Shown here piece by piece: positions 1,593-37,893 of a stretch of DNA of 64,000 nucleotides; position 1 is the stretch's first letter, and every line of letters starts with the position of its first letter. Under the pieces are notes generated by a model. It was not told where the DNA came from, ran no database searches, and worked only from the letters and a program-made list of their open reading frames with translations. Location of the stretch: assembly GCF_005876955.1 (NCBI RefSeq), contig NZ_SSCL01000004.1, positions 1-64,000 on the forward strand, written 5' to 3'. The stretch comes from Sinomonas gamaensis (GTDB lineage Bacteria > Actinomycetota > Actinomycetes > Actinomycetales > Micrococcaceae). The translations under genes were made by a program, and so were the position numbers.

Positions 1593-3704
1593 CCGAGCTC
1601 CACGCGTACCGTTCACCCCACGTCTTCGTCCGGAGTCGAAGATCGCGGGACCCCGAAGGGCTACGTCTATGGGGCGGCAGGGGCCGCTTTGGTCGTCCTG
1701 ACTGCGGCCTTGGTGTTCTCCGGAGCGGTTGCTGCCCGCCAGATCCTGGATCCCGGCGCGATTGTGCGCTGGGGCCTTCCCGTTGCTCAGACGGTGCTCA
1801 ATCTTTCGGTCGCTCTCGTTCTTGGCGGACTCGTGTTTGCCGTCGCGATCCTGCCGTACCGTCGACGTCCCGAGCGAAACGCGTTGGCGTCCTCTACGGA
1901 CGGGACCGTCGATGAACACCCGGCCTTTGCCCGTGCATTGAAGGTTGCGAGCATCGCATCCCTTGTCTGGACAGCCAGCTCCGTCGCCGTACTCGTCTTC
2001 ACACATTCCGATCTCATCGGACAGCCGATCTCGGGAACCTCGGACTACACCAAGCAGCTCGTCTTCTACATGACGCAGCTCGATGTGGGCCGGGCGTGGC
2101 TCGTCACGGTCATCATCGCCGCCACGGTCGCCACACTTCTCTTCGCCGTTCGGTCCCTGACCGCCCTCGCACTCACGTTTCTGCTGGCCGTAGTAGGCCT
2201 CATGCCCATGGCGCTGATCGGGCATTCCGCGAGCGCGGGGGACCACGAGGCCGCCGTCAACTCTTTGGGGCTCCATCTGCTGGGTGCCGGGCTGTGGGTT
2301 GGGGGTGTCGCGATGCTGGCTCTTCTCGGAGGAACTCTGACGGGCCGGTTGCGGACCTCGGCCGGCTCCCACGGGGGTGACCTCACCGAATCGGTGCTTC
2401 GACGCTACTCGGCTCTCGCCTTGTTCTGCTTCGTTCTCGTCGTCGCTTCGGGCATCATCAACGCATCGCTGCGCGTCCCGGGGTGGAGCGCCCTGTTCGG
2501 CACGTCCTATGGACAGCTGGTGATCGGCAAGGTCGTCTTTGCCCTGGTTCTCGGCGGAATCGGCTTCATGCATCGCCGGTGGGTCATACCGCAGATCGCG
2601 CGCGGGGCATCTGCCAAACGAGTCCTCTGGCAGCTCATCGGCGTCGAGACGGTCGTGATGGGCGGCGTCAGCGGGTTAGCCGTGGCGCTCAGCCGATCGG
2701 CTCCGCCCGAGCCCACGACTCTCGCGCCGGACGCCACGCCGGCCTTCATCCTTTCCGGCTACAACCTTCCCCCCGAGCTGACGCCGGTTCGCTGGCTGAC
2801 CGAATGGCGCCCTGACTGGCTCTGGGTCGCGGTGGCCGTTTTCGGCGCGGTGGCCTACGGCCTCGGCATCATCAAGCTGCTCCGCCGCGGTGACTCGTGG
2901 TCGTGGGCCCGAAGCGTTTCATGGTTCGTGGGTCTTGTCGTCCTTACCTACATCACCAGCGGGCCGCCAGCGGTGTATGGCAGGGTTCTCTTCTCGGCAC
3001 ACATGGTGGACCACATGATGCTGACCATGGTGGCTCCGTTGTTCCTGGTGCTCGGGTCGCCCGTCACGCTCGCACTCAAGGCACTTCGGCCCCGGCAGGA
3101 CGGCAGCCGTGGGCTCCGGGAATGGACGCTCGTCTTCGTGCATTCGAAGTGGTCGCAGCTGATCACGCATCCGCTGTTCGCCGCCGCCAACTTCGCCGGC
3201 TCGATCATCCTCTTCTACTACTCGGATCTCTTCGGGTATGCGATGCGGGACCATATCGGCCACGAGCTCATGAACCTCCATTTCACCCTGACCGGCTACA
3301 TCTTCGTGCTCACGATGATCGGCTCGGACCCGCTGCCCAGACGCGCGCCATACCCGCTCAGGCTCTTGCTCCTCTTTGCAACGATGGCGTTCCATGCATT
3401 CTTTGGCGTCGCGATCATGGGCTCGAACATCCTCCTCGAGCCGACCTATTTCGGGAACCTCGGGCGGCCTTGGGGCCCGTCGGCAATCTCGGACCAGCAA
3501 ACGGGCGGCGCGGTGGCCTGGGGAATCGGCGAGATACCGACGCTGGTGGTAGCGATCGGCGTCGCCGTCATGTGGTCGAGATCCGATGCCCGCGAGACGA
3601 AGCGACGTGATCGGGCTGCCGATCGGGACAACGAAGCGGAGCTCGAGGCGTACAACGCTATGTTCAACCGGCTGGGTGACCAGGACCGGGCCCGCGGATT
3701 GTGA
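1590..3704 (+). CDS. CopD-CtaG fusion, cytochrome oxidase copper assembly protein
   Basis: 704-residue polytopic membrane protein. The N-terminal half carries a CopD-type copper-resistance domain (around residues 220-330, LGLHLLGAGLWVGG and the following helices). The C-terminal half is a caa3_CtaG domain (around 400-650) with the histidine-rich HMVDHMMLTMVAPLFL segment near 469-485 and HAFFGVAIMGSN near 600. In actinobacteria this fused form is known and is taken to move copper across the membrane to cytochrome oxidase. Start is the GTG at 1590; no SD sequence, leaderless type. It is followed about 100 bases later by a thioredoxin-NHL protein, which may be in the same unit. Confidence 0.85.
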   Translation: MPSSTRTVHPTSSSGVEDRGTPKGYVYGAAGAALVVLTAALVFSGAVAARQILDPGAIVRWGLPVAQTVLNLSVALVLGGLVFAVAILPYRRRPERNALASSTDGTVDEHPAFARALKVASIASLVWTASSVAVLVFTHSDLIGQPISGTSDYTKQLVFYMTQLDVGRAWLVTVIIAATVATLLFAVRSLTALALTFLLAVVGLMPMALIGHSASAGDHEAAVNSLGLHLLGAGLWVGGVAMLALLGGTLTGRLRTSAGSHGGDLTESVLRRYSALALFCFVLVVASGIINASLRVPGWSALFGTSYGQLVIGKVVFALVLGGIGFMHRRWVIPQIARGASAKRVLWQLIGVETVVMGGVSGLAVALSRSAPPEPTTLAPDATPAFILSGYNLPPELTPVRWLTEWRPDWLWVAVAVFGAVAYGLGIIKLLRRGDSWSWARSVSWFVGLVVLTYITSGPPAVYGRVLFSAHMVDHMMLTMVAPLFLVLGSPVTLALKALRPRQDGSRGLREWTLVFVHSKWSQLITHPLFAAANFAGSIILFYYSDLFGYAMRDHIGHELMNLHFTLTGYIFVLTMIGSDPLPRRAPYPLRLLLLFATMAFHAFFGVAIMGSNILLEPTYFGNLGRPWGPSAISDQQTGGAVAWGIGEIPTLVVAIGVAVMWSRSDARETKRRDRAADRDNEAELEAYNAMFNRLGDQDRARGL

Positions 3705-24475: not shown

Positions 24476-25122
24476 GCGCGCGCGACGAGATTCTGGCCCG
24501 CGTCCGAGAGGCGCTCGCCCCCGCCGAAGTCGGGTCCCCTGCCGCCGAAGTCGGGTCCGGTGGCGCCGAAGTCGGGCCCGGCTACCGGACGGCCTCGGGT
24601 CTGGACGAGGACGCCCTCGTGGAACTCCTCGTCGACCGCTTGCTGGACTACAGGGCACGGGTCGAGGTCGTGACGTCCGACGGACTGGCCGAGGCGATCC
24701 GCACCCGACTCGAGGGCAAGCGGTTCGTCGCCCCCGACGGGCTCCCCACCAGCTGGCTCCACCCGAGCCTCGCCGAGGGCAGGGTGACGGACTCGCGCGA
24801 GGCGCCGGTCGACGTCGTACGTTTGGATGAACTCGACGCGGTGGTGACGTCGTCCGCGGTGAGCATCGCGGAGACGGGGACGATTGTGCTCGATGGCTCA
24901 CCTGACCAAGGTCGGCGAGCGATCTCGCTCGTGCCCGATCATCACGTGTGCGTGGTGCCGGTTCAGACGATCGTCGGGATTGTGCCGGAGGGCTTCGCGC
25001 GGCTCGATCCCACGCGCCCGCTGACTCTCATCTCGGGCCCGTCCGCGACGAGCGACATCGAGCTTGAGCGCGTCGAGGGCGTCCACGGGCCGCGAACGCT
25101 CGACGTCATCATCGCCCGCTAG
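24472..25122 (+). CDS. lutC: L-lactate oxidation protein, LutC/LldG (LUD domain)
   Basis: 216 residues of the LUD family with the conserved SSAVSIAETGTIVLDGS (about 125-141) and HHVCVVPVQTIVG. Function is with LutA and LutB in lactate oxidation. Residues 17-37 are unusual: three seven-residue copies of an AEVGS-containing unit, encoded by three tandem 21-bp repeats (24520-24582) that also occur outside genes at 25997-26080. The insertion lies in a variable N-terminal linker, so the enzyme is probably still functional. Its 3' end overlaps the convergent ACT-domain gene by 14 bases. Confidence 0.9.
   Translation: MSARDEILARVREALAPAEVGSPAAEVGSGGAEVGPGYRTASGLDEDALVELLVDRLLDYRARVEVVTSDGLAEAIRTRLEGKRFVAPDGLPTSWLHPSLAEGRVTDSREAPVDVVRLDELDAVVTSSAVSIAETGTIVLDGSPDQGRRAISLVPDHHVCVVPVQTIVGIVPEGFARLDPTRPLTLISGPSATSDIELERVEGVHGPRTLDVIIAR
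24520..24582 (+). repeat. three tandem 21-bp units inside lutC
   Basis: Units at 24520-24540, 24541-24561 and 24562-24582 share the core CGCCGAAGTCGGG and differ at a few bases. They are in frame and encode AEVGS repeats. The same unit appears four times, reverse-oriented, at 25997-26080. Confidence 0.85.
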
Positions 25123-25996: not shown

Positions 25997-26080
25997 CCCG
26001 ACTTCGGCGTCAGGGGACCCGACTTCGGCGGCAGGGGACCCGACTTCGGCGGCAGGGGACCCGATTTCGGCGGCGCTAGG
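25997..26080. repeat. four tandem 21-bp units between genes
   Basis: Units start at 25997, 26018, 26039 and 26060, each beginning CCCGACTTCGGCG or a close variant; units 2 and 3 are identical. They are the reverse complement of the repeats inside lutC. They fill most of the 136 bases between the ACT-domain gene and the antiporter stop codon, whose last codons they touch. Confidence 0.85.
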
Positions 26081-35184: not shown

Positions 35185-35546
35185 ACTCGTTCCTCGACGT
35201 CGTGGTCGGCGTGCTGCTGGTGCTGGGCGGCCTCCTGTCCCTCGCCGCCGCGATCGGGCTGCTGCGGTTCCCAGACCTGCTCACACGCATGCACGCCGCG
35301 ACGAAGCCGCAGGTCCTGGGGTCGTTGCTGCTCCTGACGGCCCTCGGGCTCGCGCTGCGTTCCTGGGCGCTTGTGCCGCTGCTCGTGGTGGCCTGGATCT
35401 TCCAGCTCCTGACCGTGCCGGTCTCGGCCCACATGGTCGGCCGTGCCGGCTACCGGACCAAGCACGTCGACAAGGACCGGCTGACCGTCGATGAGCTCGA
35501 GGACGTCGTGGCGCGGGTGGAGCGGGCCGAGGACGTCGACGACTGA
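35181..35546 (+). CDS. mrpG: Na+/H+ antiporter subunit G
   Basis: 121 residues, three helices, with the subunit G signature GLLRFPDLLTRMHAATKPQV and a short acidic cytosolic tail. It is the last gene of the seven-function operon and overlaps mrpF by four bases. A palindromic element begins 17 bases after the stop. Confidence 0.95.
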   Translation: MNSFLDVVVGVLLVLGGLLSLAAAIGLLRFPDLLTRMHAATKPQVLGSLLLLTALGLALRSWALVPLLVVAWIFQLLTVPVSAHMVGRAGYRTKHVDKDRLTVDELEDVVARVERAEDVDD

Positions 35547-35562
35547 GCCCTCCTCTGCCGGG

Positions 35563-35688
35563 TTCCCCAGGTTCACTTCCCCCTTCCCCAGCTTTTGAGG
35601 GTACGACGGCGGCCCTCGCCTGAGTTTCCGCACTTCCGCGGGGCTGGGGCCGCCGAGAGCTGGGGAGACCGGCGGAGAAACTGGGGAA
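35563..35688. repeat. 126-bp palindromic element, left flank of gene B
   Basis: The element begins TTCCCCAG and ends CTGGGGAA, with inner pairs CCCCAGCT/AGCTGGGG and CGGCGGCCC/GGGCCGCCG. It lies between mrpG and the gene at 35770. Its reverse complement aligns without gaps to 36630-36755 at about 78% identity by my hand count. Confidence 0.75.
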
Positions 35689-35710
35689 GCCGGGTATGGC
35701 CTCTCGATAG

Positions 35711-35772
35711 TTATCCACATAGGCGGCTTCCGCCGTCGTCTGCCGTCTGGCCGTCGGCAGGATGGTGGGGTG
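35711..35772 (+). promoter_or_regulatory. leader block of gene B, shared with 1531-1592
   Basis: TTATCCACATAG at 35711 and ATGGTGGGGTG at 35762-35772 repeat the ends and the 51-base offset of the leader before the CopD/CtaG gene. CAGGAT (35758-35763), six bases before GTG 35770, fits a leaderless -10. Confidence 0.55.
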
Positions 35773-36618
35773 ACGAAGGTTCTCAAGGTGCTTGCTCGGT
35801 GGGGAGGCGTGGCCCGACGCGCTGATCTCTTCCATGACGGTGTGTCGCGCGGCGACCTCGAGGAAGGCCTTAAATCCGGCCTGATCGTCCGAACACGCCG
35901 CGGGATTTATGCCCTTCCCGACGCCGACCCCGTTCTCGTCCGCTGCGCCTCGACGGATTCACTCTTGACGTGCGTCTCGGCGGCGAGGGCGCACGGACTG
36001 TGGGTGGTCCGCGAACCGCAGGAGATCCACATCCTGCGGTCGGACGGACGCTTCAGTTCCGACCGGGCAGTGGTTCATCGGCAGTCGTGGGTGGAACCAC
36101 CCGCCCGAAGCCACATCGCATCGCAGGCCGACGTCCTCCTCCACTCGCTCAGATGCCTGCCTGAACTCGAGGCGTTGGTCATCGTCGAATCGGCAATCCA
36201 GCAGGGCTTCTCGCGTGACTTTCTGCTCGAGCTCCTTCCCGGCCGCCGAAATGCGCCGGCACGCCATGTCATAGATTCGGTCGGCACTGGAGCTGATTCC
36301 CTCATCGAGATCCTTGCCCGCGAACACCTCCGCCGGGCGGGCTTTCGCGTCCGGCCTCAAGTTGAGGTGGAAGGCGTGGGGTGGATGGACCTCCTGATCG
36401 AGGATTTCCTCGACGTGGAGACTGACGGCCAGCTGCACAACGAGCCGGTGCAGAGGGCCAAAGACTACCGACGCGATCGCTCATTGCAGCTTCGCGGGTA
36501 TGAGGTGCTGCGCTACACGTACAGCGACGTCGTGGACCATCCGGAGGCGATGGTGGCGGAGGTCGAGCGGGTGGTTGCGCGACGTCGAAGCCTTCGGCTC
36601 CCGCCTCCGCCGCGCTGA
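35770..36618 (+). CDS. AbiEi-like / DUF559-type protein B
   Basis: 282 residues, GTG start. The N-terminal 50 residues form an AbiEi-type winged helix (LARWGGVARRADLFHDGVSR, then LIVRTRRGIYALPDADP). The C-terminal third has a Vsr/DUF559-like nuclease pattern: LREHLRRAG-type helix, VEVEGVGWMDLLIEDFLDVE, then TDGQLHNEPVQRAKDYRRD and LQLRGYEVLRYTYSDV; the D, E and Q/K-like positions are plausible catalytic residues. No toxin partner is adjacent. It is bracketed by two 126-bp inverted palindromes, as gene A (20165-21118) is by shorter ones, though the palindromes are unrelated in sequence. Confidence 0.7.
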   Translation: MTKVLKVLARWGGVARRADLFHDGVSRGDLEEGLKSGLIVRTRRGIYALPDADPVLVRCASTDSLLTCVSAARAHGLWVVREPQEIHILRSDGRFSSDRAVVHRQSWVEPPARSHIASQADVLLHSLRCLPELEALVIVESAIQQGFSRDFLLELLPGRRNAPARHVIDSVGTGADSLIEILAREHLRRAGFRVRPQVEVEGVGWMDLLIEDFLDVETDGQLHNEPVQRAKDYRRDRSLQLRGYEVLRYTYSDVVDHPEAMVAEVERVVARRRSLRLPPPPR

Positions 36619-36629
36619 AACATCACTAT

Positions 36630-36755
36630 GTTCCCCAGCTTCTGCGCCGAATTCCCCAACTCTCGGCGGCCCCGGAGATACGGAACCGCGGAAACTCAGG
36701 GGAGGGCCGCCGTCGGGCCTCTCATAAGTGGGGAAGCCGGAACTGAAGCTGGGGA
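36630..36755. repeat. 126-bp palindromic element, right flank of gene B
   Basis: Same length as the left element and inverted relative to it: starts TTCCCCAGCTT, contains CTCTCGGCGGCCCC and GAGGGCCGCCGTCG, ends AAGCTGGGGAA. It begins 11 bases after the gene stop and could fold into a long hairpin. Confidence 0.75.
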
Positions 36756-36786
36756 AGCCGGCGGAAAAAGGGGCCGGCAGAAGTGC

Positions 36787-37047
36787 CTAGACCTTCTCGG
36801 GCGTGCTGTTGAAGTGCGCCACGGCCTTCTGGGTGTACCGCTGGGTGAAGACCTGGACGATCGCGCCGACGGCGGAGGCGACGAGGGCGAAGACGAGCGT
36901 GTCCCGCAGGCTGGCCTCAAGGTTCGTGGGGTCCTTCGGCGGCTTGTGGCCGGTGCCCTTCTCCCAGACCTTGTCGAGGACTTTGGTCGCTACGAAGCCG
37001 GATCCGATGCCGATGACCGTTCCGAGCATTTTGATGAGGACCGTCAC
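36787..37047 (-). CDS. DUF4235 membrane protein
   Basis: 86 residues, GTG start with GGAGACGGA upstream. Two hydrophobic helices (about 4-22 and 52-70) flank a short loop with KVLDKVWEKGTGHKPPKDPT. This is the DUF4235 family of small actinobacterial membrane proteins of unknown function. It is divergent from the riboswitch-controlled ykoEDC operon. Confidence 0.85.
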   Translation of the reverse strand: MTVLIKMLGTVIGIGSGFVATKVLDKVWEKGTGHKPPKDPTNLEASLRDTLVFALVASAVGAIVQVFTQRYTQKAVAHFNSTPEKV

Positions 37048-37127
37048 GTCCGTCTCCTTCGCGTTCGGCGTCAGTTGGCCAGACTCTTTCGGCCCAGCCT
37101 AGCGGTAGACTGGCTGCGTTTCATACG

Positions 37128-37245
37128 ACAGGGGAGCGCCGTGGCGCGGGAGACCGAATCGGGAGCCCGTGGCACAGGGGCGCTGAGAGTGCGGATCACC
37201 GCAGACCCTCGAACCTGCTCCGGCTAATACCGGCGAAGGGAGTCG
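37128..37245 (+). promoter_or_regulatory. TPP riboswitch (THI element)
   Basis: The conserved thi-box parts are present in order: GGGGAGC (37131), CTGAGAGTG (37183-37191), ACCCTCGAACCTG (37204-37216), CTAATACCGGCGAAGGGAG (37224-37242). A long extra stem separates the first two, as in many actinobacterial versions. Thiamine pyrophosphate binding should lower expression of the downstream transporter genes. Confidence 0.93.
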
Positions 37246-37299
37246 AGTTCTCAGGCAGCGTGCGCTGCCGCCCCTCCTGATCCCAGGGGGAGAAAGACC

Positions 37300-37893
37300 A
37301 TGAGCACTACCATCAAGAAGCCCACCTATACGTGGCGGGTTGTCGACATTGTCGTTGCCGCCGTCGTCGCCGTCGCCTGCGGCGTGATCTTCTGGCTGTG
37401 GGACCAGGCGTACGTGGGGGTCACCGCCGCCACCGCCGCCTTCGCCCCGCTCAGCGGCCTGTACTCCGGCGGATGGCTCCTCGCGGGCGTCCTCGGCGGG
37501 CTCATCGTGCGCAAGCCGGGCGCGGCCCTCTTCTGCGAGATCCTGGCCGCCGTCGTGGAGGCGCTGCTGGGTTCCCAGTTCGGCGTCACCGTGCTGCTCT
37601 CGGGCCTCGTCCAGGGCGCGGGCGCCGAGCTCGTCTTCGCCGCCTTCCGCTACCGCCGGTGGAACCTCGGCGTCGCTCTGCTCGCCGGGGCGGTCTCCGG
37701 CCTCGCCCTCGGCGTGAGCGAGTGCCTGCAGTTCTTCGTCGAGTGGGAGTTCGGCTGGCAGGTGGCCTACACCGTCTTCGCCGTCATCTCGGGTGTCGTG
37801 ATCGCGGGCCTTCTGAGCTGGCTCGCGGTGAAGGCCCTCGCCAAGACGGGCGCGCTGTCCGCGTTCGCCGCAGGACGCGCCGCGGACGTCTGA
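37300..37893 (+). CDS. ykoE: ECF transporter substrate-binding subunit YkoE
   Basis: 197 residues, five to six helices, S component of an energy-coupling-factor importer. The family stretch AAFAPLSGLYSGGWLLAGVL and VLLSGLVQGAGAELVFA are present. YkoEDC imports hydroxymethylpyrimidine or thiamine; the TPP riboswitch directly upstream supports that. Start ATG 37300 has GGGGGAG upstream. Confidence 0.92.
   Translation: MSTTIKKPTYTWRVVDIVVAAVVAVACGVIFWLWDQAYVGVTAATAAFAPLSGLYSGGWLLAGVLGGLIVRKPGAALFCEILAAVVEALLGSQFGVTVLLSGLVQGAGAELVFAAFRYRRWNLGVALLAGAVSGLALGVSECLQFFVEWEFGWQVAYTVFAVISGVVIAGLLSWLAVKALAKTGALSAFAAGRAADV

Follow-up and report, generated by a model that had tools for sequence, protein, structure and literature searches.

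Among bacteria, RAYT/REPIN systems are a known example of palindromes scattered through a genome and linked to an enzyme resident there, and why both enzyme and repeats persist is an open question. According to PMC3116915 and PMC8049555, a single-copy, vertically inherited enzyme gene is flanked by palindromic doublets that it spreads; the repeats are dispersed as inverted doublets, each enzyme has its own class of repeat, and copies persist in genomes without the enzyme gene. A gene of Sinomonas gamaensis designated gene B shows a likeness to this: a chromosomal nuclease gene lies between its own palindromes, palindrome doublets are dispersed, copies occur without the gene, and there is a motif per enzyme. 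The predicted protein, however, combines an AbiEi-type winged helix with a Vsr-like nuclease and is not an HUH/Y1 protein, and the repeats are iteron-like arrays of 19-21-bp units whose motif is swapped among orthologues. No RAYT-type Y1 transposase (PF01797) was found in the 15 genomes of the genus, the control being positive in 5 of 14 reference genomes including E. coli; the nuclease system is therefore not a member of RAYT/REPIN.

Other described systems share fewer features with the locus. With AbiEi and Rv2827c of type IV toxin-antitoxin systems it shares a winged helix and paired inverted repeats as putative binding sites, but a nuclease here replaces the antitoxin domain, no toxin-like domain was found in the neighbours scanned, and the repeats lie on both sides of the gene and are dispersed as well. 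I-Bth0305I, an EDxHD nuclease that dimerises on a target of nearly 60 bp according to a review (PMC3943268), weakly resembles gene B in the fold of its catalytic domain (E 0.012), and the E, D, D and H residues conserved among gene B homologues may correspond to the EDxHD set, but gene B is chromosomal rather than intron-borne, and its palindromes are kept on both sides and multiplied in the genome. MITEs and other non-autonomous transposons are likewise short and dispersed, have inverted ends and rely on a protein encoded at another site; the difference is that a known transposase with these ends was not noticed in the loci examined, Y1 being the family searched, and that target duplications were not noticed either.

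We consider it probable (roughly 60%) that gene B together with its two palindromes forms a single unit of a nuclease-repeat system not described before, one that operates in the manner of RAYT/REPIN with an unrelated enzyme. The enzyme and the repeats are unrelated to any system known to us or found, the way of working would have RAYT/REPIN as its one known analogue, and the literature contained no account of such a nuclease-palindrome system among the matches listed.

Gene B and its predicted product

The window, by which is meant the whole stretch of 64,000 nucleotides analysed (positions 1-64000 of contig C30 in the 4.32-Mb genome, G000), contains gene B on the forward strand (35770..36618) as an open reading frame of 282 amino acids with Pfam domains and fold matches. 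The Pfam matches, all three above the cut-offs, are to AbiEi_4 (residues 5-50), the MTES_1575 nuclease (residues 185-266) and DUF559, in agreement with the AbiEi/DUF559-like gene of the preliminary description. The AbiEi winged-helix domain is present according to both PF13338 (E 1.2e-7) and a Foldseek match to 6y8q (9e-6), and AbiEi models of PADLOC also match the N-terminus. For the AlphaFold model of the protein (mean pLDDT 92.4), the best Foldseek matches are AbiEi (6y8q) and Rv2827c (1zel), and weaker E-values were obtained for the short nuclease chains of NGO0050, the I-Bth0305I catalytic domain and Vsr; that to I-Bth0305I (3r3p; TM 0.69 by target length, E 0.012) is a weak match. The resemblance to these three nucleases presumably falls on the C-terminal half, the match table giving no ranges. 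Gene B is predicted to encode an N-terminal AbiEi-type winged helix and a C-terminal MTES_1575/DUF559 nuclease (Vsr-like, PD-(D/E)XK).

Residues S177, E180, D207, H223 and D232 are invariant in 31 homologues, and E217, D219 and G220 are nearly so; because the catalytic residues are conserved in these homologues, the nuclease of the gene B family is probably under selection to stay active. In the window copy, gene B is preceded by mnhG and followed by a DUF4235 gene, a TPP riboswitch (37120-37258) and the gene that the riboswitch precedes, which has an ABC_cobalt domain (37300-37893). No partner toxin, AbiEii (DUF1814) or methylase domain was found in the three neighbours scanned in the window copy (mnhG, DUF4235 and ABC_cobalt).

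Palindromes flanking gene B

Gene B is enclosed by two palindromes of 126 bp, the 5' one (35563..35688, plus strand) ending 81 bp before its start and the 3' one (36631..36756, minus strand), inverted to the first, beginning 12 bp after its end. Each arm carries two TTCCCCAGCTT-like copies exactly 21 bp apart, and the opposite arm carries inverted copies; these lie at 35563-35573 and 35584-35594 (inverted: 35658-35668 and 35679-35689) in the 5' palindrome and at 36631-36641 and 36652-36662 (inverted: 36726-36736 and 36747-36757) in the 3' palindrome. The inner motif pair of a gene-B-type palindrome spans 85 bp, with one further motif 21 bp outside on each side, and an asymmetric core, ACGACGGCGGCCCTCGCC, which reads forward in the 5' copy, gives the palindrome a direction. 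Between the two flanks complementarity is 78% over 135 bp and BLAST gives 81% identity, and the end arms within each are 75% and 74% complementary; the preliminary description had reported two inverted flanks of exactly 126 bp, about 78% identical and each internally palindromic, and was right in both respects. A covariance model built from six gene-B-type palindromes (R1) matches the 5' palindrome at 131 bits and the 3' palindrome at 127 bits, both being training sequences. When flanks were scored by the better of inverted and direct local alignment between the 300 bp before and the 300 bp after a gene (threshold >=35), the flank pair of gene B scored 138, against a median of 22 and no score >=40 for 126 neighbouring ORFs of the same locus set.

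Two readings of the palindromes were rejected. No terminator-like site was found around gene B (35400-36900), so that ordinary terminators, which the preliminary description named as a refuting condition, are not supported. An RNA element is disfavoured in that no Rfam family was found at the palindromes (the TPP riboswitch nearby was the sole match) and covariation in a 16-sequence palindrome alignment is weak, with two-sided change at 3 of 18 pairs, one of them gap-rich. Because the covariation is weak, the palindromes are read here as resembling duplex binding sites more than RNA structures.

Paired flanks across the family

Matches to gene B at E<=1e-10 were found in 30 of 58 genomes, G000 included. 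In the first set of homologues (63 of 70 matches analysed), paired flanks at the threshold of >=35 were found at 38 of 63 homologues versus 1 of 126 neighbouring ORFs of the same loci, and at >=40 the figures are 32/63 and 0/126. Grouped by synteny, the set reduces to 30 independent loci, for 19 of which the median score is 35 or more, while 24 have one or more members at that level. The second set (26 of 38 loci analysed, 12 Sinomonas loci already in the first set being left out) consists of 25 loci from Arthrobacter and relatives and one from Sinomonas; paired flanks were found at 11/26 of these versus 0/63 neighbouring ORFs, with no correction for synteny.

A distant branch of the family is represented by L264 (G000:C1:224672-225634), with proteins of about 320 amino acids; the Pfam match in L264 is AbiEi_4 alone (residues 26-60). 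By hhalign the branch is homologous to gene B over nearly the full length (99.3%, E 2e-20, 257 columns, 25% identity), and the catalytic E, D and E.xG positions are aligned. The branch comprises 76 matches in 30 loci. Five of these loci were set aside, two for an internal stop and three as short or partial matches; of the 25 analysed, 22 have paired flanks, with a median score of 60, and a control of mismatched locus pairs gave 35/300, a figure raised by related loci.

Whether most homologues lack flanking palindromes had been raised as a check, and the outcome is that the enzyme gene is flanked by its matching palindromes in 38/63, 11/26 and 22/25 loci. The idea that gene and palindrome generally form a unit, in which each protein is tied to a motif of its own, is well supported; these genes often have paired flanks and neighbouring ORFs rarely do. 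The homologues below the threshold, 25/63 in the first set and 15/26 in the second, count against a nuclease-repeat unit. The motifs of the palindromes vary between clades and often also between loci of one clade, and nearly perfect flank palindromes are found in other genera and families of the order as well. Carriage on mobile elements is rare, homologues being present on 4 of 72,556 plasmid records and 1 of 50,697 phage records.

Several related observations were made in passing. Of the four homologues on plasmids, two bear the annotation AbiEi antitoxin. The AbiEi-type gene of L289 (G000:C23:235559-236488) lies between 20-bp-spaced CCCCGCACTTCCGCG arrays (L020:1925-2013 and 3093-3180) with a direct score of 128, and 19-bp GGGACGGTTATGCC-like arrays occur on G000:C30 (L018:6800-6860) and also around an AbiEi-type gene in G008 (L256). 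Another AbiEi-type gene (L246, G000:C6:70.7-71.6 kb) appears to be broken into pieces in different frames.

Discrete elements and dispersed copies

In one clade the palindromes measure 85-87 bp end to end in 16 of 16 aligned copies, three of them solitary, and share a GGCGTGTC-like core; this alignment (set A2) does not include a 129-bp match in L064. In G007 and G010, for example, the arms hold 21-bp units in longer tandem series. Solitary copies, which the preliminary description proposed should be sought, are present in the searches with R1, with a second covariance model (R2), and with motifs A and B of the L264 branch.

With R1 (distinct sites at E<=0.01, a count that may be low), gene-B-type palindromes number at least 18 in G000, at least 12 in G007 and at least 12 in G010, which are the three species with gene B; included in these counts are two sites at each gene B and, in G000, one site at a paralogue as well as three training sequences. 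Palindromes of this type in genomes without gene B (at least 23 in G008 and at least 10 in G001) count against the unit, and loss of the gene is assumed there. The remaining ten genomes of the genus have 0-2 R1 sites among the best 150 candidates scored per genome. R2, built from another clade, with both strands counted and with some detection of a further clade's palindromes, gave at least 11-35 matches in the eight genomes where that clade has a gene (best 150 candidates per genome scored) and 0, 0, 1, 1, 8, 10 and 16 in the seven genomes without one (among the best 150 candidates each). Also to be counted against the unit is G005, which has a solitary second-clade palindrome and at least 16 R2 matches and no gene of that clade. 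The palindromes of one clade are also seen in tandem at a spacing of about 210-280 bp, reminiscent of BIME clusters (G000:C33:97889-98391, G010:C1:4010415-4011417 and G001:C1:266004-266834).

Array motifs and resident orthologues in the L264 branch

L264 has orthologues at 66-69% identity in seven other Sinomonas species, and its locus is conserved: flanking DNA matches on both sides in G008, G002, G003 and G014, upstream in G004 and G009, and downstream in G011. The flank motif of these orthologues does not differ between the two sides of a gene and is of three types, namely type A (GCCGAGGTCGGG) in G000 and G008, type B (C/GCGARGTCACCCC) in G004, G009, G003 and G014, and type C (CCGARATGGGGG) in G011 and G002.

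Arrays were counted in the 15 genomes of the genus as pairs of motifs at 21-bp spacing (<=1 mismatch for motif A). Motif A pairs number 91 in G000, 35 in G008 and 0-4 in the 13 other genomes, the flanks of the G008 gene having been read after this count. Motif B pairs number 182 in G004, 132 in G003, 101 in G014 and 79 in G009, and 0-12 in the 11 others; these four genomes had been named before the outcome was seen, and the chance that the four highest would be the four named is 1 in 1365 if the genomes are independent, which overstates the result as they are related. The 15 species are not 15 independent points in this test, G003 and G014 being the most closely related. Reversed-pattern controls gave 0 in every genome in both the motif A and the motif B search. 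For type C, G011 has 21 exact relaxed-C pairs in 200 kb (3 of the strict pattern) and no B, and G000 has no exact relaxed-C pair in 84 kb; in 200 kb of G002, whose flanks are C-type, B is likewise absent and 1 exact relaxed-C pair was found (11 with two mismatches), which counts against the correspondence, as do motif B pairs in genomes without a close L264 orthologue (12 in G005, 8 in G013 and 7 in G012). It is well supported that the motif of the arrays genome-wide follows the flank motif of the resident nuclease orthologue.

The 91 motif A pairs of G000 make up 38 arrays, those at the gene included. Where neighbouring arrays lie within 5 kb of each other, they are oriented plus then minus in 9 of 13 cases, minus then plus in 1 and on the same strand in 3.

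Covariation of protein and palindrome had been proposed earlier as a check, and it was found in part: the array motif tracks the flank motif of the resident orthologue, but over distant, non-syntenic pairs the correlation of protein and flank similarity is slight (rho 0.10, reached by 13 of 300 permutations in a Mantel-type test that is partly confounded by shared neighbouring sequence). That each protein is specific for its own palindrome is suggested by the motif swap in the L264 branch, but not by gene B itself. Among L264-type orthologues with different motifs, residues 1-60 are the least conserved (0.64-0.71, versus 0.79-0.91 after residue 140).

Two motif A arrays are present in the window. 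One, with about 3 units of 21-bp CCGCCGAAGTCGGG on the plus strand (24521..24581), is inside the 5' part of a LUD-domain (lutC-like) gene and in frame, at 7 codons per unit; the other, inverted, with about 4 units on the minus strand (25997..26074), is beside an ACT-domain gene. Together they form the sole other high-identity inverted repeat listed for the window, and they enclose the LUD-domain and ACT-domain genes. The preliminary description had counted a second AbiEi/DUF559 locus in the window; this array pair is not one, because the genes between are those with LUD and ACT domains, and searches with gene B (E<=0.001) and with the L264 branch (E<=1e-10) gave no further match in the window. 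The CCGCCGAAGTCGGG unit is the flank motif (A) of L264, and the arrays belong to the system whose gene is on contig C1. The array at 24521-24581 adds about three 7-residue AEVGSPA-like units to the LUD-domain protein.

Autoregulation, homing and host function as explanations

On the plus strand between the 5' palindrome and gene B stands TTATCCACA (35711..35719), 59 bp before the start codon and identical to a DnaA box according to the table in PMC4285127. At -65..-55 it occurs exactly or with one mismatch in 35/63 and 21/26 loci and in none of the two control windows per set. It is also found at 1531-1539 of the window, where it likewise stands 59 bp ahead of a start codon, that of the gene at 1590. 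In its extended form, TTRTCCACATAG, it occurs at 10 sites in G000: 3 are before close paralogues, 3 before other AbiEi-type genes, and the other 4 precede or adjoin other genes, such as that at 1590; in G007 it also precedes a gene read as recA. As a defining part of the nuclease unit the box was rejected for this reason: it is a promoter element common to other genes, and its layout, about 60 bp before the start, may mark DnaA-controlled genes in Micrococcaceae.

The 5' palindrome is upstream of this promoter box and the winged helix of gene B is of the AbiEi/Rv2827c family, and it might be supposed that the flanking palindromes are only operators, for autorepression like that of AbiEi and Rv2827c, and that the dispersed copies are the sites of a regulon. 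PMC7319586 reports that the promoters of AbiEi and Rv2827c contain 23-bp inverted repeats to which the respective protein binds, and that neither bound those of the other. We think it unlikely that this is the whole explanation, since a matching palindrome is also present 3' of the gene, dozens of arrays occur in some genomes, one of them within coding sequence (24521-24581) and three as bare inverted pairs 85-120 bp apart, and concerted change at dozens of sites is hard to obtain by selection site by site. Autorepression alone would call for upstream sites, but matching downstream sites and dozens elsewhere exist.

A homing explanation is about equally doubtful. The preliminary description had suggested a search for empty sites, and the gene-B locus (mnhG to DUF4235) was found in three states: without a gene-B-type palindrome in G004 and G011 (by a check with the model), with one solitary TTCCCCAG palindrome in G001, and with the gene between two palindromes in G000, G007 and G010. 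In G008 the locus holds, by eye, a half array. Other species have palindromes of other clades at this locus; those of G009, G012 and G013 share the motif of a nuclease gene that the respective genome carries, while G005 has such a palindrome but no corresponding nuclease gene. The series from empty to occupied sites, and the weak resemblance of the predicted structure to I-Bth0305I and Vsr, would suit a free-standing homing endonuclease that targets the palindrome, with its gene inserted by break repair and the palindromes spread in some other way. Homing insertion destroys its target site, however, whereas the occupied gene-B site keeps two palindromes. Moreover, the same orthologue at the same locus has different motifs on both sides in different species, which implies that the motif changes around a resident gene.

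It is more improbable still that the arrays serve chromosome structure or immunity, for instance by marking self-DNA against a solitary restriction-like nuclease, and are kept by selection. The fixed loci of the nuclease genes across species and the PADLOC AbiEi matches to the N-terminus would be in keeping with a host function, but the three scanned neighbours (mnhG, DUF4235 and ABC_cobalt) have no partner toxin or methylase domain, and the copy number of the arrays differs widely among species of the genus. A chance expansion of GC-rich intergenic tandem repeats that happen to be near these genes is scarcely credible, for although the number of units in an array varies between close species (G003 and G014), paired flanks stand at 38/63 versus 1/126 and 11/26 versus 0/63 neighbouring ORFs, and the reversed-pattern controls for motifs A and B are zero in every genome.

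A proposed mechanism

The nuclease-repeat system that we favour takes as observed the paired flanks, their generality, the dispersal, the match between gene flanks and motifs genome-wide and the conserved catalytic residues; binding, cutting and copying or movement by the nuclease are what we infer. The AbiEi-type winged helix would bind a clade-specific motif, present as direct repeats at 19-21-bp spacing in both arms of a palindrome of about 86-130 bp, and the Vsr/homing-endonuclease-like domain would nick or cut DNA at such palindromes. Repair would then copy palindrome or array sequence between sites, by which solitary copies would spread and the copies within one genome, those on either side of the gene among them, would be kept alike. 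If the specificity of the protein drifted, the arrays would follow. The nuclease gene itself is chromosomal and mostly inherited at a fixed place. Cut-and-repair copying is preferred because it would account for four observations: flanks that come in pairs, copies that are dispersed, their similarity within one genome, and motifs that change in concert.

In its broadest form, the proposal is that palindromic iteron arrays are spread over the chromosome through cut-and-repair copying by a resident winged-helix/PD-(D/E)XK nuclease, that the arrays change motif in concert with its specificity while the gene is unmoved, that several such systems with different motifs coexist in a Sinomonas genome, and that the class spans at least the Micrococcales; this is offered tentatively, at a little short of an even chance.

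If the proposal is true, these genomes would provide a second case alongside RAYT/REPIN, non-homologous to it, with coexisting classes of motif and motif-swapped orthologues, by which the question of persistence would become testable by comparison. It would also account for many of the dispersed 19-21-bp repeats in these genomes, suggest a function for solitary AbiEi-DUF559 genes as a hypothesis, and make available naturally matched enzymes and targets in which the evolution of nuclease specificity could be followed.
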